A stretch of DNA of 64,000 nucleotides from Mitsuaria sp. GD03876 (GTDB lineage: Bacteria > Pseudomonadota > Gammaproteobacteria > Burkholderiales > Burkholderiaceae_C): assembly GCF_029840635.1 (NCBI RefSeq), contig NZ_JAOCCU010000034.1, forward strand, positions 1 through 64,000. The letters are read 5' to 3'. Below, piece after piece: positions 6,768-20,287 of the stretch. The notes beneath the pieces are model-generated. The model was not told the origin of the DNA, did no database searches, and saw only the letters and a list, made by a program, of their open reading frames with translations. Numbering within the stretch: the first letter of the stretch is position 1; each line of letters opens with the position of its first letter. A program made the position numbers and the translations under genes.

Positions 6768-8924
6768 ATGACGATCAGGCGAGGGCCGCGGCCCGTGACG
6801 GGCATGGTGCGCTGCTGCGCGTTGGCGGCGATCCTGGCGGGCCCGGCCTGTGCCCAGGAAATCGGGAACACCGGATCGGATCGAGGCGCCGCGGCAGACC
6901 CGCCATCGACGCCGCCGACGCGGATCGCCAAGGCGGAGCCGGTCGCGCTCGAACGCGTCGAGCTCAGCGGCCGGCATTACGACAACGGCATCGGCACCTC
7001 GGACGCGGCCTCGCAGGGCGCGGTGCGCGCGGAGCTGCTCAAGAGCCGGCCCGCGCTGCGCCCCGGCGAGGTGCTCGAGTTCGTGCCCGGCCTGATCGTC
7101 ACGCAGCACAGCGGCGACGGGAAGGCCAACCAGTACTTCCTGCGCGGCTTCAACCTGGACCATGGCACCGACTTCGCCACGACGGTGATGGGCCTGCCGG
7201 TGAACATGCCCAGCCATGCGCATGGGCAGGGCTACTCGGACCTGAACTTCCTGATGCCCGAGCTGGTCGAGCGCATCGACTACCGCAAGGGGCCGTACTT
7301 CGCGCGCAACGGCGACTTCGCCGCGGCGGGCTCGGCGGACATCGGCTACGTCCGCCGGCTGGACGAGCCCTTCGTCGCGCTGACGCTGGGCGAGGGCCGC
7401 TACCGGCGCGCGCTGGCGGCGGGCTCGGCCGAGGTCGGCGACGGGATGTCGCTGCTGGCGGCCGTCGAGGGCATGCGCAACGACGGCCCCTGGACGACGC
7501 CCGAGGACCTCGATCGCCGCAACCTGGTGCTCGGCCTGTCCGGCGGGCGCGGCGGCGACAAGTGGCGGGTGGCGCTGATGGACTACCGCGCGGACTGGAC
7601 CTCGACCGACCAGGTGCCGCAGCGGCTGATCGACGCCGGCACCCACGAGGGCCGGCCGTTCGGCCGCTTCGACGCGATCGATCCCACCGACGGCGGTCGC
7701 ACGCGTCGCGGCAGCCTGTCCGGCGAATGGCAGCGCGACACCGAGGGATCGAGCACGCGGATCGCCGCGTACGCGATGGCCTACAAGCTGTCGCTGTACT
7801 CGAACTTCACCTATGCGATGGAGCGGCCGGAGGCCGGCGACCAGTTCTCGCAGCAGGACGATCGCAAGGTCTACGGCCTGAGCGGCAGCCACGCGGTGGA
7901 CCACGCGCTCGGCGGGCTGCCGGCGCGCAGCGAGTTCGGCTTCCAGGTCAGGCAGGACCGGGCGCGCGTCGGGCTGTTCAAGACGGTGGGCCGCGTCGTC
8001 GTCGATCCGGCGAATGACACGACCCGCGACGACGACGTGCGCGAGACGCTGTCCGGCGTCTATGGCCAGACGAGCGTGGAGCTGGCGCCGTGGGCGCGGA
8101 CGGTGCTCGGCGTGCGCGCGGACCAGGGGCGCTTCCGCGTGGATCACCGGGCGGGGGAGGGCGAGTCGGGCCGCGTGCGCGACAGCCTGGTGTCGCCGAA
8201 GTTCTCGCTGGTGCTGGGACCGTGGGCGCGCACGGAGTTCTTCGTCAACGCCGGCCGCGGTTTCCACAGCAACGACGCGCGCGGCGTGACGGCGGCGGTC
8301 GATCCGGCGCCGGGCCTGGTGAAGGCCAAGGGCTATGAGCTGGGCTTGCGCGGCGAGTGGCTGCCGGGGCTGCAGACCTCGCTGGCGCTGTGGAAGCTGG
8401 ACTTCGATTCGGAGCTGGTCTACGTCGGCGATGCCGGCGCGACCGAGGCCAACCGGCCGAGCAGGCGGCGCGGCATCGAATGGAACAACCGCTACGTGCC
8501 GCTGCCGTGGCTGCTGATCGACGCGGACTTCGCCTGGACGCATGCGCGCTTCTCGGATGCGGATCCGGTGGGGAACCGCATTCCGAATGCGGTCGACAAG
8601 GTCGCGTCGATGGGCGTGACGGTGCGCGAGCTGGGGCCGTGGTCGGCGAGCCTGCAGTGGCGCTACCTCGGCAGCGGCGCGCTGGTCGAGGACAACAGCG
8701 TGCGCTCGCATGCGTCGCTGACGACCAACCTGCGCGTGAGCCGGCGCTTCGGCGCGAAGACGGAGCTGACGCTGGATGTCTTCAATCTCATGGACCGCAA
8801 GGTCAACGACATCGAGTACCTCTACGAATCGCAGCTGCGCGGCGAGGACGCGCCGGTCGCCGACCGCCACGTCCATCCGGCCGAACCGCGCACGGTCCGC
8901 GTGACGCTGCGGCGGAGCTTCTGA
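6768..8924 (+). CDS. TonB-dependent outer-membrane receptor
   Basis: An outer-membrane beta-barrel receptor of 718 aa. A signal peptide (core VRCCALAAILAGPACA, cleavage near AQE) precedes a plug domain with RPGEVLEFVPGLIVTQHSG, QYFLRGFNLDHGTDFA, and PVNMPSHAHGQGYSDLNF. The barrel ends with a terminal Phe (VRVTLRRSF), the usual Bam-recognition signal. The plug sequence belongs to a widespread TonB-receptor group of unknown ligand; no siderophore genes flank it. I chose the ATG at 6768 because it sits right before the signal peptide; a TTG at 6750 would add six residues. No Fur box is seen upstream, unlike the second receptor. The HEPN cassette follows about 170 bp downstream. Confidence 0.9.
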   Translation: MTIRRGPRPVTGMVRCCALAAILAGPACAQEIGNTGSDRGAAADPPSTPPTRIAKAEPVALERVELSGRHYDNGIGTSDAASQGAVRAELLKSRPALRPGEVLEFVPGLIVTQHSGDGKANQYFLRGFNLDHGTDFATTVMGLPVNMPSHAHGQGYSDLNFLMPELVERIDYRKGPYFARNGDFAAAGSADIGYVRRLDEPFVALTLGEGRYRRALAAGSAEVGDGMSLLAAVEGMRNDGPWTTPEDLDRRNLVLGLSGGRGGDKWRVALMDYRADWTSTDQVPQRLIDAGTHEGRPFGRFDAIDPTDGGRTRRGSLSGEWQRDTEGSSTRIAAYAMAYKLSLYSNFTYAMERPEAGDQFSQQDDRKVYGLSGSHAVDHALGGLPARSEFGFQVRQDRARVGLFKTVGRVVVDPANDTTRDDDVRETLSGVYGQTSVELAPWARTVLGVRADQGRFRVDHRAGEGESGRVRDSLVSPKFSLVLGPWARTEFFVNAGRGFHSNDARGVTAAVDPAPGLVKAKGYELGLRGEWLPGLQTSLALWKLDFDSELVYVGDAGATEANRPSRRRGIEWNNRYVPLPWLLIDADFAWTHARFSDADPVGNRIPNAVDKVASMGVTVRELGPWSASLQWRYLGSGALVEDNSVRSHASLTTNLRVSRRFGAKTELTLDVFNLMDRKVNDIEYLYESQLRGEDAPVADRHVHPAEPRTVRVTLRRSF

Positions 8925-8943
8925 CGCTCGGCTGACTCAACAG

Positions 8944-9096
8944 CCTTCATCAGTCGACGCAGGGGGACTGACCTACTCGGATCAGCGTCCCCCAACGGAA
9001 CGCTCTTCGGAGGGAATCGACAAACGCCCCTTCGCTTCGACACTGCGGGCCTTCGGGTCGTGGGCTCGATGACGTGCAGTTGAGAAGGAGCGTGTG
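8944..9096 (+). promoter_or_regulatory. Structured leader of HEPN cassette copy 1
   Basis: A 153-bp non-coding leader similar to 19198-19341. Hairpin 1 (8962-8993) pairs GGGGGAC with GTCCCCC, extended by TGA/TCA, around a loop with CCTACTCG. Hairpin 2 follows with CTC-TTCG-GAG, a UUCG tetraloop. Identical blocks shared with copy 2 include CCTTCATC, GGGAATCGACAA, TTCGACACTGCG and GTGTGATG. The start of the gene is preceded by AAGGAG. Whether it is a 5' UTR, a promoter region or a separate small RNA cannot be told from sequence alone. Confidence 0.6.
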
Positions 9097-9681
9097 ATGG
9101 CGTTTGTCGAGAAGGAACTGGCGTGGCGGGCCGCGCCGAGGACCGAGGAGCTGGTTGTGCCCGAGGCGGCACGGTCGCTGGATGACGTTGGCGACGAGCG
9201 AATGCCGGGGTTGACGTCGCTGATGCGTGTGCTGCGCGAACCCGAGACGCTGTTTGGTGAATCTTCCGAGCGTAAGCCCGAGCCATGCAGGCGATTCCAG
9301 GATTGGGGTGATGCGCCAGTGCGGATGCAGTGGTGTCTCGCGTACTGGGATGCACGCTGCGCAGACGTGTTGCTTCACATGAAGTTGGGCGCGGATGTGC
9401 TGCGAGACCATGGGGTGAAGATTTGCCGAGGCGACGTGAATGTGACCTTCCTCGAGCATGAAGACCTGTCCCCGAGTGTCTTCATCGAACTGAGCATCGA
9501 CGCCACGTCGGAAGAGGCTGCGAGGCTGACACGCGTCCTGGATCGCCGCGCCATCGCCTTGGAGGTCCCTTGTGATGGCTTCACCTTCTGCTTCATGGAT
9601 GGTGAGGGCGGCGATGACGAAGATCCACCGCCAGCCTGTGTGTCGTTGCGCGACGCTCCAAGTGAGGAGACGAGCGAATGA
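9097..9681 (+). CDS. Unknown protein, first gene of HEPN cassette copy 1
   Basis: A 194-aa acidic protein of no family I recognise. It is a diverged paralogue of the protein at 19342-19908. Shared landmarks are VLREPETLFGESSER (residues ~45-60), ADVLRDHGVKICRG (~100-113), then a segment with IDAT...A..LT and a closing GFTFCF before an acidic tail (GEGGDDEDPPP). There is no signal peptide or membrane segment, so it is probably cytosolic. Its stop overlaps the next ATG (ATGA), so the two proteins are probably made together. By analogy with toxin-antitoxin operons it could be the regulator or antitoxin of the downstream HEPN-like protein; this is inference only. Its GC looks lower than that of flanking genes, suggesting transfer. 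Confidence 0.75.
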   Translation: MAFVEKELAWRAAPRTEELVVPEAARSLDDVGDERMPGLTSLMRVLREPETLFGESSERKPEPCRRFQDWGDAPVRMQWCLAYWDARCADVLLHMKLGADVLRDHGVKICRGDVNVTFLEHEDLSPSVFIELSIDATSEEAARLTRVLDRRAIALEVPCDGFTFCFMDGEGGDDEDPPPACVSLRDAPSEETSE

Positions 9682-10064
9682 CCATCAGGCCAGAGGACCT
9701 CCAGGCACTCGCCGAGCAGCAATCAAAGGTGATTGGCGAGTCGTGGCAACGATCAGCTGTATCCCGGGCCTACTACGCGAGCTATCACCGCTGTTTGTTG
9801 TGGGAATCCAATCTGACGACGGCAGTACCGCCGCGTCGTCGCAAGGGCAGTGAGCATCAGCAATTGCTCAATCGACTAAAAGATCCGAATCCGGCTTGCA
9901 CGGAAGTGGAGAAGCGGCAGTCGACCGAACTTCATCGGCTCCTGTCGCTGCAGCGAGCACGACGCGTGAAGGCGGACTATGAGTTGGGCCAGGACGTGAG
10001 CCGCAAGGAGATGAAGCGCCAGCTTTCGGACGCCAGGGAACTGTTCCGCGAATGCGGCGATTGA
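9678..10064 (+). CDS. HEPN-like small protein, cassette copy 1
   Basis: A 128-aa predicted helical protein. The stretch SRAYYASYHRC (residues ~27-37) and RRVKADYELG (~95-104) resemble the two signature helices of HEPN/UPF0332 proteins (commonly SRAYYA.FH and R..ADY). Many HEPN proteins are ribonucleases or toxins using an Rx4-6H motif. Here a His occurs in RAYYASYH, but the usual late-helix position reads R-VKAD-Y, so catalytic competence is uncertain. Translation is coupled to the preceding gene by ATGA overlap. Its paralogue is at 19889-20287, alike across the full length but clearly diverged. The HEPN assignment rests on motif recognition only. Confidence 0.7.
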   Translation: MTIRPEDLQALAEQQSKVIGESWQRSAVSRAYYASYHRCLLWESNLTTAVPPRRRKGSEHQQLLNRLKDPNPACTEVEKRQSTELHRLLSLQRARRVKADYELGQDVSRKEMKRQLSDARELFRECGD

Positions 10065-10068
10065 GCCA

Positions 10069-10100
10069 GTCAATGCGCCTCCCGGCGCATTGACTCTTCT
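10069..10100. terminator. Hairpin between convergent genes
   Basis: GTCAATGCGCC pairs perfectly with GGCGCATTGAC (11 bp, loop TCCC), followed on the plus strand by TCTTCT. It lies between the HEPN-like gene and the convergent PEP-CTERM gene and can serve both strands, though the T-tract is weak. Confidence 0.65.
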
Positions 10101-10108
10101 GCCAGCAG

Positions 10109-10759
10109 TTACTGCGCCCGCTTGCGGCGCGCCACGAAGCCGACGGCCGCCAGGCCGGCCAGCATCAGCGCCACGCTGTGCGGCTCCGGCACCGCCGAGA
10201 TCGCGATGTTGTCGATCGCCGCGTTCATGTCGCCGCTGAACTTCAGCGAATGCGCCACGCCGTTGAAGCTCACCGACGCCAGGTCGAAGTGGCAGAACGC
10301 CGTGTCCGAGCACCCCGCCTGCGCGTTGCCGGCCAGCGAGAACGTGCCCAGGATCGAGCCCGTGCCGTTCAGCCCGCTGTAGATCGTCACCGCGCCCGCC
10401 AGCGCGCTGGCCGACGAATAGAACATCGACACCTCGCCGGTGAAGCCCTTGGCCACGTTCATGAAGCCGGTCTCGGCGAAGTTGAACGCCACGCCGCCCA
10501 TCGTCGGGGCGTTGCTGAAGTAGGGGCCGAGCTCGTCGTTGGCCAGGCCCAGGACCGAGCCGCTGAACGACACGCCCAGGTTGGCGCCGCTGGCGCCGTT
10601 GCCGTCGGTGCCGCCGTTGTAGTAGTCGAGCACCGACGCGAAGCTGGTCGGGCCGTCGAAATCGATCCAGGTGTTGGCCGCATGCGCCGGGGCGGCGTTC
10701 AGCGCCAGCGCCGTCAGCGCGGACAGGGACAGCAGGACGGAGGAAGCAGCACGCTTCAT
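10109..10759 (-). CDS. PEP-CTERM sorting-domain protein
   Basis: A 216-aa exported protein. A signal peptide (SSVLLSLSALTALALNAAPAHA) is followed by a Gly/Ser/Asn-rich mature domain and a C-terminal PEP-CTERM tag: VPEPHSVALM, a short hydrophobic stretch (AGLAAVGFVA) and basic RRKRAQ. Such tags are cut by an exosortase (EpsH/XrtA type) at the inner membrane; no exosortase gene is in this window. The mature part carries one CSDTAFC cysteine pair and no catalytic motif. Its role may be in exopolysaccharide or biofilm matrix, by family analogy. The ATG at 10759 is preceded by GGGAGA. It is divergent from the PHP-like gene across 250 bp in which I see no clear promoter. Confidence 0.87.
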   Translation of the reverse strand: MKRAASSVLLSLSALTALALNAAPAHAANTWIDFDGPTSFASVLDYYNGGTDGNGASGANLGVSFSGSVLGLANDELGPYFSNAPTMGGVAFNFAETGFMNVAKGFTGEVSMFYSSASALAGAVTIYSGLNGTGSILGTFSLAGNAQAGCSDTAFCHFDLASVSFNGVAHSLKFSGDMNAAIDNIAISAVPEPHSVALMLAGLAAVGFVARRKRAQ

Positions 10760-14420: not shown

Positions 14421-15490
14421 GCGCGGGCGGCATGGCAGCCGGCGGACTCCGTCCGGTTCGACGCGGCGTGCTTCGATTCAGCGTGTCGCCGCTGTGGCGG
14501 CTGTGGCGGCTGTGGCGACTGTGGCGCCTGTGGCGCCTGTGGCTGCTGGCCCTGCTGGCCGCGTCAGCCGCGCTGTGGAGCGGCTCCGCCTCGGCGCACG
14601 AGATGAGCATGGCCGAGATGCAGGTTCGCGAGACCTCGCCCGGCGAGTACCTCTGGCAATGGACCGCCAGCGAGAAGCGCGCCGCCGACGAGGTGCTGTC
14701 GCCGCAATGGCCGACGGGCTGCACCGCCGACGGTCCCAACCTGCATTGCGGCAAGGCCGGCCTGAGCGGCGCGCTGACGATGGAGGGCGTGGGCAAGCAG
14801 TACTCGGCCGCCGTGGTGAAGGTGTTCTGGATGGACGGCCAGGCCAGCGTCTACACGCTGACCGCCGGCCAGCCGACGGTGCAGCTGTTCGGCTCGGCCG
14901 AGGACCGCCGCGGCATGGGCGAGATCGCGCGCGCCTACACGCTGCTGGGCGTGGAGCACATCCTGGCGGGCATCGACCACCTGATGTTCGTGATCGGCCT
15001 GCTGTTCCTGGTGGGCTTCCGCCGCCAGCTGCTGTGGACCATCACCGCGTTCACGGCGGCGCACAGCCTGACGCTGGGCATGAGCGCGCTGGGCTGGCTG
15101 CAGCTGCGGCCGCCGCCGGTGGAGGCGACGATCGCGCTGTCCATCGTGCTGGTCGCGTGCGAGGCGCTGAAGACCTCCACGGGGCCGGTGACGCTGGCCC
15201 GGCGCTGGCCGGCGCTGGTGGCCTTCCTGTTCGGGCTGGTGCACGGGCTGGGCTTCGCCGGCGCGCTACGCGAGATCGGCCTGCCCGAACACCACCTGCT
15301 GGTGGCGCTGCTGACCTTCAACGTCGGTGTCGAGATCGGCCAGCTGATGACGGTGGCGGCCTGCTGGGCGCTGTGGCGGGTGTCGCACCGCTGGGCCTGG
15401 ACGGCGCGGCTGCGCACGGTGCTGCTGTACCTGATCGGCTCGGCGGCGGCCTACTGGTCGTGGCTGCGCATCGCGGCGATCGCGGGCTGA
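14417..15490 (+). CDS. HupE/UreJ-family membrane protein
   Basis: A 357-aa protein with a signal/anchor, a ~150-residue exported domain starting HEMSMAEMQV, and a C-terminal membrane domain of about six helices. The membrane part carries GVEHILAGIDHLMFVIGLLF and FGLVHGLGFAGAL, His-rich motifs typical of the HupE/UreJ group, which has been linked to nickel or other metal transport. The substrate is unknown here; no hydrogenase or urease genes are nearby. The N-terminus has six 9-bp units giving repeated Leu-Trp-Arg, an odd basic-aromatic leader. The start overlaps the PPIase stop, and the next gene begins within 22 bp, so this is one operon. Confidence 0.85.
   Translation: MSAGGMAAGGLRPVRRGVLRFSVSPLWRLWRLWRLWRLWRLWLLALLAASAALWSGSASAHEMSMAEMQVRETSPGEYLWQWTASEKRAADEVLSPQWPTGCTADGPNLHCGKAGLSGALTMEGVGKQYSAAVVKVFWMDGQASVYTLTAGQPTVQLFGSAEDRRGMGEIARAYTLLGVEHILAGIDHLMFVIGLLFLVGFRRQLLWTITAFTAAHSLTLGMSALGWLQLRPPPVEATIALSIVLVACEALKTSTGPVTLARRWPALVAFLFGLVHGLGFAGALREIGLPEHHLLVALLTFNVGVEIGQLMTVAACWALWRVSHRWAWTARLRTVLLYLIGSAAAYWSWLRIAAIAG
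14492..14545 (+). repeat. In-frame 9-bp tandem repeat (Leu-Trp-Arg) in the HupE-like gene
   Basis: Six 9-bp units of the form CTGTGGCGN (the last CTGTGGCTG) encode repeating Leu-Trp-Arg just before the hydrophobic signal core. Copy-number change would lengthen or shorten the leader without a frameshift. Confidence 0.9.
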
Positions 15491-15511: not shown

Positions 15512-16138
15512 ATGAAACCGGAAGTCTTCAGCCTGTTCCCCACGCCGGTGATGCGCGTGCCCGGCGCGTTGCCGCCGGCGCTGGTCGCCGGCTTGGTCGC
15601 GCACTTCAGCGCCGAGGCGGTGCAGGACAACAACAGCTCGGCGAAGCTCGTGCACACGCGCATGCTCAGGCCGGGCGACAGCCCGCTGCTGGTCGACGTC
15701 GCGGCGCTGCTGGCCGGACCGCTGTCGGAGTTCGGCGCGCTGCTCTTCGGCGAACGCATGGGCTGGGCGGTCAAGGAGATGTGGGTCAACGTGATGGCCC
15801 ACGGCGGCCATCAGTCGATGCACAACCATGCCAACAGCTTCGCCTCGGGCGTGGTGTACCTGACCGGCACCGACGAGTCGGCGCGCACGGTGTTCATGAA
15901 GTCGCCCGGCGGGACCGACTTCAGCTTCAAGAACGACCACCCCGGCATGGTGGCCGGGCCGTTCAACGCCGAGAAATGGATCAGCCCGGCGCCGTCGCCC
16001 GGCGACCTGGTGCTGTTCCCCAGCTACCTGATGCATGCGGTGCCGCCCAACGACGGCGGCCAGCGGATCAGCCTGGCGTTCAACGCGATCCCGTTGCGCC
16101 TGGATTCCTGGGGCTACACGATCGGGTTCAGCGGATGA
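15512..16138 (+). CDS. Putative 2OG-Fe(II) oxygenase (TIGR02466-like)
   Basis: A 208-aa protein resembling the TIGR02466/2OG-Fe(II) oxygenase family. It opens VFSLFPTPVMRV, has WVNVMAHGGHQSMHNHANSFASGVVYL with the HxH/His ligands expected of the jelly-roll core, and LVLFPSYLMHAVPPN followed by RISLAFN, carrying the second His and an Arg for 2-oxoglutarate. It would hydroxylate an unknown substrate in the cytosol. The start is uncertain: ATG 15512 is used, but GTG 15494 would add six residues and sits 4 nt after the HupE-like stop. The stop overlaps the next ATG by 4 nt. Its presence in an operon with a spermidine-synthase-like protein may hint at polyamine-related chemistry, which is speculation. 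Confidence 0.78.
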   Translation: MKPEVFSLFPTPVMRVPGALPPALVAGLVAHFSAEAVQDNNSSAKLVHTRMLRPGDSPLLVDVAALLAGPLSEFGALLFGERMGWAVKEMWVNVMAHGGHQSMHNHANSFASGVVYLTGTDESARTVFMKSPGGTDFSFKNDHPGMVAGPFNAEKWISPAPSPGDLVLFPSYLMHAVPPNDGGQRISLAFNAIPLRLDSWGYTIGFSG

Positions 16139-19100
16139 GCGTGTCCATCGAGCCCGCCGGTCTCCCGGCCGACCCGGCCGACCCGGTCGGCCCGGTCGGC
16201 CCGGTCGGTCCGGTTGGCCCGGTTGGCCCGGTTGGCGGAACAGCCAGGCCGGATGCGCGAGCGCGACGATTCGCGCTCGCGCTGATGGGGCTGTCGGGGT
16301 TCGCCGGGCTCGGCTACCAGATGGTGTGGACCCAGCAATGCGCGCTTTGGCTCGGCTTCGAAGCCGCCGCCGTCCTGGCGGTCGTGACCGCGTTCTTCGG
16401 CGGACTGGCCCTCGGTGCCCTGGCCTTCGGCGCGCGGATCGAGCGCTCGCGACAGTCTCGGCGCTGGTACCTCGCGTGCGAAGCCTTCATCGGGCTGTGG
16501 GGCCTCGCGCTGATCGCGCTGATGCAGCCCGCCGGGGCGGCGGTCCAGCAGTGGATCGGCGCCGAACCGACCCCCCTGTGGCAATGGGCCATCACCTTCG
16601 GCGCCAGCTTCCTGCTGCTGTTGCCCGCCACCGCCGCCATGGGCGCCACCCTGCCGGCGATCGAGCGGATCGTCGAGTCCGCTTCCGCACCCATCGCGTC
16701 CGCCTCGGAGTCCACCGCGCTCGAGCGGCGCTCCATCGCGGGGCTCTACGCCGCCAACACGCTCGGCGCCGTCCTCGGCGTCCTGCTCGTGACCTTCTGG
16801 CTGGTGCCCGCGTTCGGGCTGTCAATGTCCGCCGGCGTCTGCGTGCTCCTCAACGCGCTCTGCGTGGTCGGAGCGTGGGTCGGCTTTTCCGGAGGGCAGG
16901 GGAAGGGCGCGACCGCCCACCTGCCAGCGTCGAGCGCGGCCCATCACAGGGCATGGGGGCGCCCGTCCGGGACCCCCAAGCCCTGTTCCGGTCCCGGAGA
17001 CAACCCTCGCGCAAGCGCGCCCGCGGGGGAGGCGGGGCGCGGCGCGGGTTCCGCGGTGCTCGTCTTGCTGGCCGCCAGCGGCCTGCTCGGCATCGGCTAC
17101 GAAGTCGTCGCCGTGCGCGTGCTCAGCCAACTCAACGAGGACACCGTCTATACCTTCGCGTTGCTGCTCGCCGTGTACCTCGTCGGCACCTCGATCGGCG
17201 CGGCGGCGTACCAACGCTGGCTGCGAGCGATCGACCAGGACCGGCTCTCGATCACGCTGCCCGCGGCGCTCGCCATCACCACCCTGTCCGGACTCTGCGC
17301 GCTGTGGGGCGCACCGGCCCTGAAGTCCGGCGCGATGCGGGCGCTCGGCGACGGCTTCGCCGCGGCCCTCGGCGCCGAGTCGACCCTGGCGCTCGCCGCC
17401 TTCGGCCTCCCGACGATCGCGATGGGCGCCTGGTTCAGCCATCTCGGCGCGCAGGCCCTGCGGCAGGACCTCGGCTTCGGCCGCGCGCTCGCGGTGAACA
17501 CGCTCGGCGCCGCCGTGGCCGGGCCGCTCTTCGGCGTCCTCGTCGCCCCCTGGTGGGGACCGAAAACCGCGTTGCTGCTGATCGCCGGAGGCTACGTTCT
17601 GGCCGCTGCGACGACTGCTGCAACAACCGCTGTGACGACCGCTGTGACGACCGCTGTGACGACCGCTGTGACGACCGCTGTGACGACCGCTGCGACAACT
17701 GCTGCGACGACCGGCGCAATGACCGCCGCGACAACCACCGCAACAACCGCCGTGATGACCGGCGCGAAGGCCTGGCGCCATCCGCTGGTGGCGCTCCCGG
17801 CGGTTGCGGTGGCGTTGATGGCGGTGTTCGGCGCGCCGTTGACGTTCGTCGACCTGCCCGACGGCGCGCGGCTCGTCAGTTATGCCGAGGGCGCGATGGC
17901 CGCCGTGAGCGTGGTCGAGGACGGGCAGGGCGTCTCGCGGCTGCGGATCAACAACCGGCAGCAGGAGGGCAGCAGCACCAGCCTGTTCGTCGACGGTCGC
18001 CAGGCGCTGCTGCCGTTGCTGCTGCATCCGGCGCCACGGCGCGCGCTGTTCCTGGGGCTGGGCACCGGCGCGACGTCGGGGACCGCCGCGCAGGACCCGT
18101 CGTTGCAGGTCGATGCCGTCGAGCTGCTGCCGGAGGTGATCGACGCGTCGTCGCATTTCACGCAGTCGCTGGGGCTCGCTGGCGCGCTGCCGCGCTTCGT
18201 CGCGGCGGACGCGCGGCGCTTCGTGCGCGCGGCCGGGACGCGCTACGACGTGATCGTCTCGGACAACTTCCATCCCGCGCGCAGCGGATCCGGCGCGCTC
18301 TACACCCGCGAGCATTTCGCGGCGGTGCGCGAGCGGCTCGCGCCCGGCGGGCTGTTCTGCCAGTGGCTGCCGCTGCACCAGCTCGACCTCGACAGCCTGC
18401 GCAGCGTGACGCGGGCCTTCCTGGCCGAGTACCCGGAGGCGGTCGCGGTGCTGGCCACCAACAGCCTGGAGACGCCGGTGGTCGGACTCGTGGGGCGCCG
18501 CGATGCACCGGTGACGGCAGAGACGCTGCCTGCGGGCCGGATGCTGCCTGCGGACCGGACGCCGCCGGTGGACCGGACGTTCGCGGGAGGACGGACGCTG
18601 GCGGACTGGCAGGCGCGCGTGGGAGGAACGCCTGCGCGGCGGGATGGTCGCGGTCTGTCGGACTTCGGCATCGACGATGCCTTCGACGTGCTCGGCGGCG
18701 TGATCGCGGGATCCGCGGCGCTGGCCGGATTCGCCGGCGATTCGCCGATGAACACGGACGATCGGCCGGTGGTGGCCTATCTCGCGCCGCGACTGCTGTA
18801 CGCGCCGACGTCGACGCCCAAGGACCGGTTCTTCGAGCTGATGCATCGGCTGAGCGTCCGGCCCCGGGACCTGGGCCTGCGGTCCGCGGAGGACGAGCGA
18901 CGCCTGTCGGCGTACTGGCGCGCGCGGGACCTGTTCCTCGAGGCGGGGCGTGCCGCGAGACCCACCGCCGATCCGGCGGCGATGCTGGCGCAGGTGGAGG
19001 CGCCGCTGCTCGCGGCGCTCCGGATGAGCCCGGACTTCCGGCCGGCTTACGACCCGCTGCTGCGCATGGCGATGGCCCTGGCGCCGCGGGACCCGGCGGC

Positions 19101-19197
19101 CGCGCGGCGAGTGCTCATCGCGCTGCGCGACGCGCAGCCCGCGCGCCCCGAGGCCGGCGAGGCGCTGGCGTCGATGGGAGCGTCGACGGGGCAATGA
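16135..19197 (+). CDS. Large membrane protein with spermidine-synthase-like domain
   Basis: A 1020-aa fusion. Residues ~45-270 and ~300-520 hold two sets of hydrophobic helices like MFS-type or spermidine-synthase-associated membrane domains (FALALMGLSGFAGLGYQMVW; VLLAASGLLGIGYEVVAV). Residues ~600-850 form a methyltransferase-like spermidine synthase domain: RALFLGLGTGATSG, VDAVELLPEVID, FVAADARRFVRAAG and YDVIVSDNFHPARSGSG. The C-terminal ~150 residues are helical with no known motif. Similar proteins are annotated as fused MFS/spermidine synthase, but polyamine synthesis is unproven. Three low-complexity insertions are translated in frame: Pro-Val-Gly repeats near the N-terminus, a REP-like element (~residues 272-288) and Thr-Thr-Ala-Val repeats (~496-543). 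It is last in the operon, and its stop abuts the second HEPN leader. Confidence 0.75.
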   Translation: MSVSIEPAGLPADPADPVGPVGPVGPVGPVGPVGGTARPDARARRFALALMGLSGFAGLGYQMVWTQQCALWLGFEAAAVLAVVTAFFGGLALGALAFGARIERSRQSRRWYLACEAFIGLWGLALIALMQPAGAAVQQWIGAEPTPLWQWAITFGASFLLLLPATAAMGATLPAIERIVESASAPIASASESTALERRSIAGLYAANTLGAVLGVLLVTFWLVPAFGLSMSAGVCVLLNALCVVGAWVGFSGGQGKGATAHLPASSAAHHRAWGRPSGTPKPCSGPGDNPRASAPAGEAGRGAGSAVLVLLAASGLLGIGYEVVAVRVLSQLNEDTVYTFALLLAVYLVGTSIGAAAYQRWLRAIDQDRLSITLPAALAITTLSGLCALWGAPALKSGAMRALGDGFAAALGAESTLALAAFGLPTIAMGAWFSHLGAQALRQDLGFGRALAVNTLGAAVAGPLFGVLVAPWWGPKTALLLIAGGYVLAAATTAATTAVTTAVTTAVTTAVTTAVTTAATTAATTGAMTAATTTATTAVMTGAKAWRHPLVALPAVAVALMAVFGAPLTFVDLPDGARLVSYAEGAMAAVSVVEDGQGVSRLRINNRQQEGSSTSLFVDGRQALLPLLLHPAPRRALFLGLGTGATSGTAAQDPSLQVDAVELLPEVIDASSHFTQSLGLAGALPRFVAADARRFVRAAGTRYDVIVSDNFHPARSGSGALYTREHFAAVRERLAPGGLFCQWLPLHQLDLDSLRSVTRAFLAEYPEAVAVLATNSLETPVVGLVGRRDAPVTAETLPAGRMLPADRTPPVDRTFAGGRTLADWQARVGGTPARRDGRGLSDFGIDDAFDVLGGVIAGSAALAGFAGDSPMNTDDRPVVAYLAPRLLYAPTSTPKDRFFELMHRLSVRPRDLGLRSAEDERRLSAYWRARDLFLEAGRAARPTADPAAMLAQVEAPLLAALRMSPDFRPAYDPLLRMAMALAPRDPAAARRVLIALRDAQPARPEAGEALASMGASTGQ
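16171..16238 (+). repeat. In-frame 9-bp tandem repeat (Pro-Val-Gly)
   Basis: Units of 9 bp close to CCGGTCGGC encode Asp-Pro-Ala and then six Pro-Val-Gly repeats in the cytosolic N-terminus of the spermidine-synthase-like protein. The third bases drift from C to T along the array, as expected of an ageing array. Confidence 0.85.
16949..16995. repeat. REP-like palindrome, copy 1 (inside a gene)
   Basis: GGGCATGGGGG pairs with CCCCCAAGCCC across a short loop, followed by TTCCGG and CCC. The same core recurs at 34363-34408 in a non-coding region. Here it is read through in frame in the linker between the two membrane halves of the spermidine-synthase-like protein. Confidence 0.7.
17620..17760 (+). 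repeat. In-frame 12-bp tandem repeat (Thr-Thr-Ala-Val)
   Basis: Units near ACGACCGCTGTG are repeated, five of them almost identical, then degenerate ones. They encode Thr-Thr-Ala-Val/Ala repeats after the last membrane helix before the catalytic-like domain. The unit length keeps the frame open. Confidence 0.9.
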
Positions 19198-19341
19198 CCT
19201 TCATCGGTTTGTGCGGGGGGACCGGCCTACTCGAAGTGGTTTCCCCCATCGATTCGCCCTTCGAGGGGAATCGACAACACCGCATCTGATTCGACACTGC
19301 GTGCCTTTCCGGGTCGGGGACTCGGGGACAGGAGTGGTGTG
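19198..19341 (+). promoter_or_regulatory. Structured leader of HEPN cassette copy 2
   Basis: A 144-bp leader homologous to 8944-9096. Hairpin 1 (19215-19247) pairs GGGGG with CCCCC and CC with GG; the bases outside the GC core differ from copy 1 yet still pair, and the loop again carries CCTACTCG. A second hairpin pairs CGATT with AATCG around a CCCTTCGAGGG stem. The leader starts directly after the TGA of the upstream gene. AGGAG lies 7 nt before the ATG. Confidence 0.6.
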
Positions 19342-19908
19342 ATGACGATGAGTTTCGAAACGAAGTGCGCTGCGTCGGTGGTCGCCGACCTCTTCCAGTT
19401 GCCGCCACGGCGACGGGTCCATTTCTACGACCTGATGGCCGTGCTGCGCCAACCGGAAGCCTTGTTCGGCGAACCCTCCGAGCGGCTCGTGGACCTCGAG
19501 CCCGATCACATGCCTGTGAACTGGGACGAACTCCTCGACGTCGCTCAAGAGGCGGCGATGGACCACGGGATGACCGCGACGACGATGATGGAGATCCTCC
19601 AAGTCGCCGCTGATGTCTTGCGTGAGAGCGGCTTGCGGATATGTGCCGGCAATCCTGAGCGAGTGGACATCTATCCGGCGGAGATGGAGGAGGCCGGGTT
19701 CAGCTACGACCTCCGTCTCGACGCGACGCACCAGGTCGCGCGCGCGCTCACCGACAATTTCATCGGTCGATTGATCGACCGCGACATGTGCCGCCGAGGT
19801 TTCATGTTTTCCTTTGTCGGGGAATGGACGGAAGAGGAACTGGACGACTGGGAGCGTGCCGCCGAGGCAGCGGAGCAGGGAGGTCGTCATGGCCGTGACG
19901 AGCAATGA
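19342..19908 (+). CDS. Unknown protein, first gene of HEPN cassette copy 2
   Basis: A 188-aa protein, paralogous to 9097-9681. Shared landmarks: VLRQPEALFGEPSER (~35-49), AADVLRESGLRICAG (~92-106), LDATHQVARALT (~129-140) and GFMFSF (~153-158), then an acidic Glu/Asp-rich end. The N-terminal ~30 residues differ between copies. No catalytic motif, signal peptide or membrane segment is visible. The ATG at 19342 has a well-spaced AGGAG; GTG 19339 and ATG 19348 are alternatives. It overlaps the HEPN-like gene by 20 nt, with the downstream GGAGG inside its coding end. Whether it is an antitoxin-like partner cannot be decided from sequence. Confidence 0.75.
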   Translation: MTMSFETKCAASVVADLFQLPPRRRVHFYDLMAVLRQPEALFGEPSERLVDLEPDHMPVNWDELLDVAQEAAMDHGMTATTMMEILQVAADVLRESGLRICAGNPERVDIYPAEMEEAGFSYDLRLDATHQVARALTDNFIGRLIDRDMCRRGFMFSFVGEWTEEELDDWERAAEAAEQGGRHGRDEQ

Positions 19909-20287
19909 TCTGCTTCACCAGGCCAGGGACTTGCCGCTTGTGCCACCGGAGGTGCGGCGGCGCACGCTCGCCAGCAAGGCCTACTACGCAAGCTATCACC
20001 GCTGTCTGGATTGGGAACGGTCGCTGCCGGCACGCGGAGGTCCGAAGAAGCGGCGTGGAGGCGTTCACCAGCGCCTGATCCTCCGGCTTCAAACGCCCGA
20101 CTCGACCTGTACCGGCGATCAGGTCAGGCTCTCACGGTGGCTGGGCGACAGCCTCGACGAATTGCGCAAGCTCAGGGTCAAGGCGGACTACAAGCTGGCG
20201 GAAGACCTGAGCCGGAGGGAACTCCGCAGCCAAGTGACGCTCGCCCAGGCGCTGTTCGATTGCTGCGATGGCCGGCGCAAACCCTGA
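19889..20287 (+). CDS. HEPN-like small protein, cassette copy 2
   Basis: A 132-aa protein, paralogous to 9678-10064. SKAYYASYHRCLDWE (~28-42) and LRKLRVKADYKLAEDLSRRE (~91-110) give the two HEPN-type helices. The Arg of copy 1 before AYYASYH is Lys here, so that Arg is not strictly needed, whereas R-VKADY is kept in both. The ATG at 19889 has GGAGG upstream within the preceding gene; a longer frame from 19814 would only add residues overlapping that gene. The protein is basic and probably cytosolic. A Fur-controlled receptor gene follows 104 bp downstream and is likely transcribed separately. Confidence 0.7.
   Translation: MAVTSNDLLHQARDLPLVPPEVRRRTLASKAYYASYHRCLDWERSLPARGGPKKRRGGVHQRLILRLQTPDSTCTGDQVRLSRWLGDSLDELRKLRVKADYKLAEDLSRRELRSQVTLAQALFDCCDGRRKP

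Follow-up and report, generated by a model that had tools for sequence, protein, structure and literature searches.

Two cassettes in the window

The stretch analysed here, hereafter the window, comprises 64,000 nt of Mitsuaria sp. GD03876 (NZ_JAOCCU010000034.1, positions 1 to 64,000) and is part of contig C28 of a 6.36-Mb genome. It carries at two sites, both on the forward strand, a cassette in which a leader precedes two small overlapping genes, the second of which encodes a HEPN-type protein. A first-pass annotation made from the letters alone had described these two units with the same order and overlapping genes, and both are present where it placed them. In copy 1 the leader lies at about 8937-9096 (some 130 conserved nt plus the spacer to gene 1) and is matched at 8937-9069 with E 2.4e-30 by a covariance model built from this leader itself and 25 other leaders. 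It is followed by gene 1, an open reading frame of 194 aa (ATG, 9097-9681, with a GTG at 9094) proposed as the antitoxin or partner, and by gene 2 (ATG, 9678-10064), which encodes the 128-aa HEPN-T protein proposed as the toxin; the two genes overlap by 4 nt (ATGA). In copy 2 the leader lies at about 19191-19338 (covariance-model match 19191-19325, E 4.5e-27), gene 1 at ATG 19342-19908 (188 aa) and gene 2, again HEPN-T, at ATG 19889-20287 (132 aa), with an overlap of 20 nt. Two small, adjacent and co-directional genes with the proposed antitoxin first correspond to the type II toxin-antitoxin layout.

Across about 125 nt the two leaders are 75% identical (E 3.5e-15 when the own genome is searched). 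For the gene-2 proteins, identity is 43% by genome search and 41% by alignment, and for the gene-1 proteins it is 27% by alignment. The GC content of leader, gene 1 and gene 2 is 62.1, 62.1 and 58.9% in copy 1 and 61.8, 62.4 and 65.2% in copy 2, against 70.1% for the window, which bears out the lower GC noted at first sight. Copy 1 lies below every 1121-bp segment sampled at 200-base steps, and copy 2 near the 4th percentile.

Copies in the genome and the genus

The cassette had been described as present twice in 10 kb, which is right for the two sites but not as a limit on copy number, since five gene-2 matches with E no higher than 2.4e-15 are present in the own genome (a further three rows, E 0.95-7.2, were left uncounted). 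A recent duplication is ruled out, as had been claimed, by the 41-43% identity of the gene-2 copies together with synteny: the two cassettes about 10 kb apart recur, with their order unchanged, in the related genomes G004, G006 and G007, which makes the pair old. A gene-2 search of 16 genomes of the genus gave matches in 9, up to 8 per genome and 37 rows in total. We read 30 cassettes, 5 from the own genome and 25 loci from the 37-row search (7 rows had no locus), for which start codons, and the frame where frames competed, were picked by hand. A gene-1 frame lies directly 5′ of gene 2 in all 30, and the gap between the genes ranges from -20 to +40 nt (29 cassettes). A gene-2 profile run on the 16 genomes returned 55 rows, of which 33 are full-length matches, 4 come from decayed copies that survive as fragments, and 18 are weak (E 3e-6 to 7e-4; the only one of the weak rows examined, G002:C45, is a remnant). 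By comparison of coordinates, 33 of 33 full-length matches have gene 1 directly upstream, so the pair is conserved across genomes.

Decay of the cassette is one-sided. Gene 1 is kept with gene 2 broken, shortened or absent at 6 places, and the reverse was found in 0 of 33. These places are G003:C19, G013:C2, G013:C6:604k (where gene 1 reads on into the gene 2 tail), G004:C10, G008:C181 (a frameshift) and a lone gene 1 at G006:C12:436851. Such an asymmetry fits a protector that cannot be lost first. Remnants without both genes intact also occur, as a fusion of genes 1 and 2 at L129 and as a leader with a gene-2 tail at L150. It may be noted that at L129 (G006:C12:436851) the lone gene 1 stands directly after a complete cassette and before a second leader with the fusion.

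No phage record matched gene 2, a search of IMG/VR with a single protein as query gave no confirmed relative, and one plasmid record matched, NZ_CP011515.1 of Mitsuaria sp. 7. In these collections the cassette is therefore not mainly a phage element. The plasmid match (10636-10989 of this 262-kb plasmid) is the cassette L043 on G007:C2. We obtained no clean empty site, the downstream flank of the window being unmatched beside a gene that we take to be TonB-type at L163-L169 and L173-L175. On the 5′ side, the leader comes directly after a presumed enoyl-CoA-hydratase-type gene in G003, G008 and G013 (both gene names are our reading of the translations). A gene of this presumed type also lies one gene 5′ of copy 1 in the window, and at L156 (G008:C80:60140) a leader without either gene stands directly 3′ of one.

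The HEPN-T protein

The predicted model of gene 2 has the helical fold of the HEPN superfamily, which agrees with the HEPN-like character first assigned to it. The classical catalytic Rx4-6H is absent from the C-terminal part of all 29 members in the genus, which have R96-x3-D100-Y101 instead. R25, H60, R96, D100 and Y101 are kept in 29 of 29 genus members and, outside the genus, in 63, 63, 61, 61 and 61 of 63. Thus the Arg is kept, the His is replaced by Asp and a second conserved His lies N-terminal to the motif, as for HEPN-T of the AF0298 type, which is defined with an alternative histidine in the consulted part of Anantharaman et al. 2013 (PMC3710099). By its predicted fold and this alternative residue set, gene 2 is HEPN-T.

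The two window copies of gene 2 score 12.5 and 13 bits against Pfam HEPN PF05168, below its cut-off of 22 bits, and only 2 of 29 members reach E 1. PADLOC HEPN_IX (PDLC02923) matches 19 of 29 members weakly (best E 5.6e-6), and in the window copy the match covers only residues 6-41 in the N-terminal part. Among the closest described systems is HEPN-T as typified by AF0298 (PDB 2hsb), from which the window unit differs in that its partner, within what was tested, is no nucleotidyltransferase and in that gene 2 stays below the PF05168 cut-off; also, its leader and multi-copy allelic behaviour do not appear in the portion of the AF0298-type description that we consulted (PMC3710099). From HEPN-MNT (type VII, MntA-HepT) it is set apart by R-x3-D-Y in place of Rx4-6H and by the lack of an MNT motif or Pfam family beside it where tested. 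The LA2681-type HEPN (Table 1 of PMC3710099) resembles it in having a HEPN gene beside a TPR gene; in the portion of that source consulted, it is listed as keeping Rx4-6H, unlike gene 2, and is set apart by description. With AbiF/RCd22 the likeness is a conserved non-coding stretch 5′ of a HEPN-type toxin gene, but the AbiF/RCd22 RNA has two repeated motifs and no protein antitoxin is mentioned in the text consulted (PMC12373285), whereas the window leader is unrepeated and a protein gene lies between. The whole unit of leader and two genes was not found in the HEPN and toxin-antitoxin literature, among the matches listed, in titles and the starts of abstracts.

The partner protein

Gene 1 has no named family, in line with the first impression that it could not be named, and PADLOC gave it no match. 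The AlphaFold2 model of gene 1 of copy 1 (pLDDT 83.3) ends in a C-terminal domain of strand-strand-helix-strand order, a domain common to TPR-like proteins encoded just 5′ of HEPN-T genes in proteobacteria; this wider partner aligns with gene 1 at 98.3% in hhalign (E 2e-14). The length of gene 1 is 144-216 aa, and 245-266 aa in the four cassettes L004, L030, L037 and L045. No MNT family was found in Pfam for gene 1 of both window copies or for 20 partner proteins elsewhere, and a crude regular-expression search for the MNT motif gave 0 of 66 loci. As far as tested, gene 2 would therefore not be a member of HEPN-MNT. No DNA-binding family was found for gene 1 either, and the leader holds palindromes.

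Two side observations concern this protein. At L137 (G007:C1:723775) two gene-1 domains stand in tandem in a 390-aa open frame, with a normal leader on the 5′ side and gene 2 on the 3′ side. At L085, L098, L103, L114 and L115, from planctomycete and Kuenenia records, the last short part of the frame 5′ of the HEPN gene looks, by eye, like the gene-1 C-terminal domain; Pfam gave no match for those frames of L085, L103 and L114.

The leader

A profile from 9 seeds found the leader at 26 of the 30 cassettes, the four without it being those with a long gene 1. The covariance model gave 37 matches at E <= 0.05 in 8 of the 16 genomes. In an even sample of 299 genomes across the family, searched with stricter filters, 2 showed the leader; they belong to this genus, the only one of 141 genera with a match, and the leader was not found at the relatives outside the genus. 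Its conserved blocks are GGGGGA.TGaCCTaC....CCCC, CGC.cTTcggaGG and ccGA.ACTGc. In the 294 divergent pairs that 25 cassettes give, the similarity of the leader is greater than that of gene 1 in 288 and greater than that of gene 2 in 268. As it stays constant across loci while the proteins vary, we infer that a shared factor may read it.

Whether the leader acts as a folded RNA was approached in several ways. In copy 1 a palindromic stem-loop GGGGG...CCCCC lies at 8962..8993 on the forward strand; most of the 35 leaders compared retain its outer G-C pairs, and its inner stem is retained only in part. For the central stem, 76.8% of cells are paired (4 of 500 shuffles as high) and 6 of 10 pairs have changes on both sides (19 of 500 shuffles), but its covariation score of 0.092 is not above slid controls (up to 0.121). 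Of the 8 pairs given by RNAalifold, one has changed on both sides. The mean folding z is -0.71 for the whole leader (26 leaders) and -1.01 for the 3′ segment. Close to the gene 1 start, copy 1 has a terminal hairpin at 9053..9069 (TCGGGTC-GTG-GGCTCGA, forward strand), which as a single copy is not significant (p 0.11), and copy 2 has one at 19306..19328 (forward strand; 10 pairs with a GGG loop), for which 0 of 200 shuffles score as high (row L002). Summed over 26 related leaders the stem score is 198 against 146.5 +/- 6.5 for shuffles (maximum 162 of 200), a comparison that overstates the hairpin since the leaders are related, and only 7 of the 26 reach p 0.05 against their own shuffles. Overall, the indication of RNA structure in the leader is weak, and such support as the sequences give is mainly for the putative hairpin near the gene 1 start. 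Neither window leader has tandem repeats and Rfam has no match in the window. A coding leader peptide is not supported, as the stem-loop length differs by one base between members when judged by eye, with no coding test.

Islands of divergence between related species

We compared 17 locus pairs, with one genome per species, so that the comparison is between species. Four same-locus pairs have high flanks on both sides (L023/L025, L028/L039, L043/L033 and L035/L047). Identity in their flank bins is 78-98%, apart from a single bin (62%) that borders the leader on its 5′ side in L035/L047. The leaders of these pairs are 86-98% identical and the spacers between leader and gene 1 52-100%. With each gene divided into halves, the bins of both genes fall to 45-70%, and over the first 100 nt 3′ of gene 2 identity is back at 85-92%. 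Bins of 60 bases show a dip to 56-71% just 5′ of the leader in 3 of the 4 pairs. Of the identical amino acids in these pairs, only 33-48% have the same codon, so the synonymous sites look saturated and positive selection in place is disfavoured as the sole cause of the divergence.

Among other pairs the pattern is less complete. Five more same-locus pairs (L001 with L023, L024, L025 and L026, and L033/L003) have low genes and less constant leaders (49-85%), and L042/L028 and L042/L039 show the divergence and share no downstream flank. The flanks are weak upstream in L044/L036 and downstream in L002/L040, and L001/L002 and L001/L029 each compare two different loci. The divergence of the genes relative to flanks and leader thus holds at several, not all, loci.

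The locus on C23 allows the alleles to be set against their flanks. Between L033 and L043 the flanks are 94.0% identical upstream and 92.9% downstream and the leader 98.6%, against 57.0% for gene 1 and 54.5% for the gene-2 region (nucleotide identity), whereas between L043 and L041 the flanks are 90.7% and 93.1% and the genes 83.1% and 81.0%. With flanks about equally close in both comparisons, two of the three species have an allele type in common, and the allele type does not follow the flanks. Also, the gene-1 and gene-2 distances are correlated (Mantel r 0.81, 0 of 2000 permutations, n=25). These comparisons suggest that the two genes were replaced together by old alleles, with the leader and the 3′ end as a constant frame, and the pair appears to have been exchanged as an allelic unit between related species.

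Interpretation

From the sequence comparisons and the predicted models, we consider it probable, though well short of certain, that the pair works like a toxin-antitoxin or abortive-defence module, as a leader-controlled bicistron. Gene 2 would be an RNase or another HEPN effector using the His and Arg of the alternative site proposed for AF0298-type HEPN-T. Gene 1, which we take to be the antitoxin of the pair, would be made first and would neutralise gene 2, to which its C-terminal alpha/beta domain would bind directly, and the leader would be a common 5′ control region recognised by something that the loci share. Selection would favour alleles that are rare or foreign, as it does where phages or other mobile DNA are the opponents, and old alleles would thereby stay in circulation. 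The HEPN-based toxin-antitoxin or defence module proposed in the first-pass annotation is supported in part, by the HEPN fold, the fixed gene order and the pairing in 33 of 33.

A further-reaching and more tentative proposal is that the loci may form a genus-wide polymorphic immunity-type system with a constant genus-specific leader driving interchangeable two-gene alleles, each for a HEPN-T effector and the inhibitor that matches it. If so, ancient alleles would be shared across species and exchanged as linked units between the leader and the fixed 3′ end, and each lineage would have a set of specificities of its own, spread over as many as seven or eight loci in a genome. Through the pairing, an orphan HEPN-T branch that lacks the classical His gains a consistent partner family, itself unnamed, so that the control of such HEPN proteins becomes testable. 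Many combinations from the set of loci, cognate as well as non-cognate, could serve to probe specificity. The sharp island of divergence in conserved flanks with a constant leader is also an unusual natural record of apparent linked allele exchange in a gene pair of bacteria.

Several observations weigh against these proposals. In L034/L046 the genes are 77-81% identical with no collapse, and L038/L002 is mild (genes 61-72%, upstream flank 69-76%). The correlation of gene-1 and gene-2 distances comes partly from alleles clustering by locus, and gene order could contribute to the asymmetry of decay.

A sensor-effector defence pair, in which gene 1, as sensor or adaptor, detects a foreign molecule and switches the HEPN effector on, and variability follows a changing ligand, is the strongest competitor, though we hold it to be rather unlikely. 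Both genes are variable, some partners outside the genus have TPR-like helical repeats (TPR_14 at E 7e-4 in L086, below its cut-off), and the weak HEPN_IX match, N-terminal in the window copy, extends to 19 of 29 gene-2 members; but the short form of the genus lacks the long N-terminal part, and the persistence of gene 1 at 6 places where gene 2 is not intact is easier to reconcile with a protective than with an activating role. We give still less credence to an RNA antitoxin (type III or AbiF-like), in which the leader RNA would bind and restrain the HEPN protein with gene 1 as an accessory. The leader does precede 26 of 30 cassettes, its conservation exceeds that of the genes and it has a hairpin before gene 1, and restraint of an AbiF-type HEPN-related toxin by an upstream RNA is published, according to the part of the source consulted (PMC12373285). 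Yet the repeated structured RNA typical of type III is absent from the window leaders, whole-leader folding barely beats shuffles, Rfam is silent in the window, relatives outside the genus and the four cassettes with a long gene 1 do without a leader, and a leader that is constant while the proteins change is unlike a cognate antitoxin RNA. Least likely of all is an ordinary regulatory or metabolic pair without a toxin (a nucleotide-binding protein of HEPN fold and its partner, diverging under relaxed selection), for although the canonical catalytic motif is absent, decayed copies exist and the copies near the window lie among ordinary-looking genes, the retention of R25/H60/R96/D100/Y101 (29 of 29 in the genus, 61-63 of 63 outside) argues against relaxed selection, which in place would leave the sharp boundaries with saturated synonymous sites unexplained, and there are up to 8 matches per genome.

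Other features of the window

Just 3′ of gene 2 of copy 1, near the 3′ end of the variable unit, lies an inverted repeat, AGTCAATGCGCC-TCCC-GGCGCATTGACT, at 10068..10095 on the forward strand, of which 24 nt (10070-10093) are identical in G006 and G007. It has no T-run and the terminator scan did not call it. A simple scan of 8800-10250, which is uninformative for a GC-rich organism, found neither a sigma-70 promoter nor a canonical terminator. Elsewhere in the window, short tandem repeats of period 9 or 12 occur at 14491-14548, 16164-16236 and 17603-17761, inside or at the edge of long frames. One 12-base unit, with about 13 repeats, lies in the 1138-aa frame at 15781-19197, where it is translated as repeats of TTAV/TTAA type.
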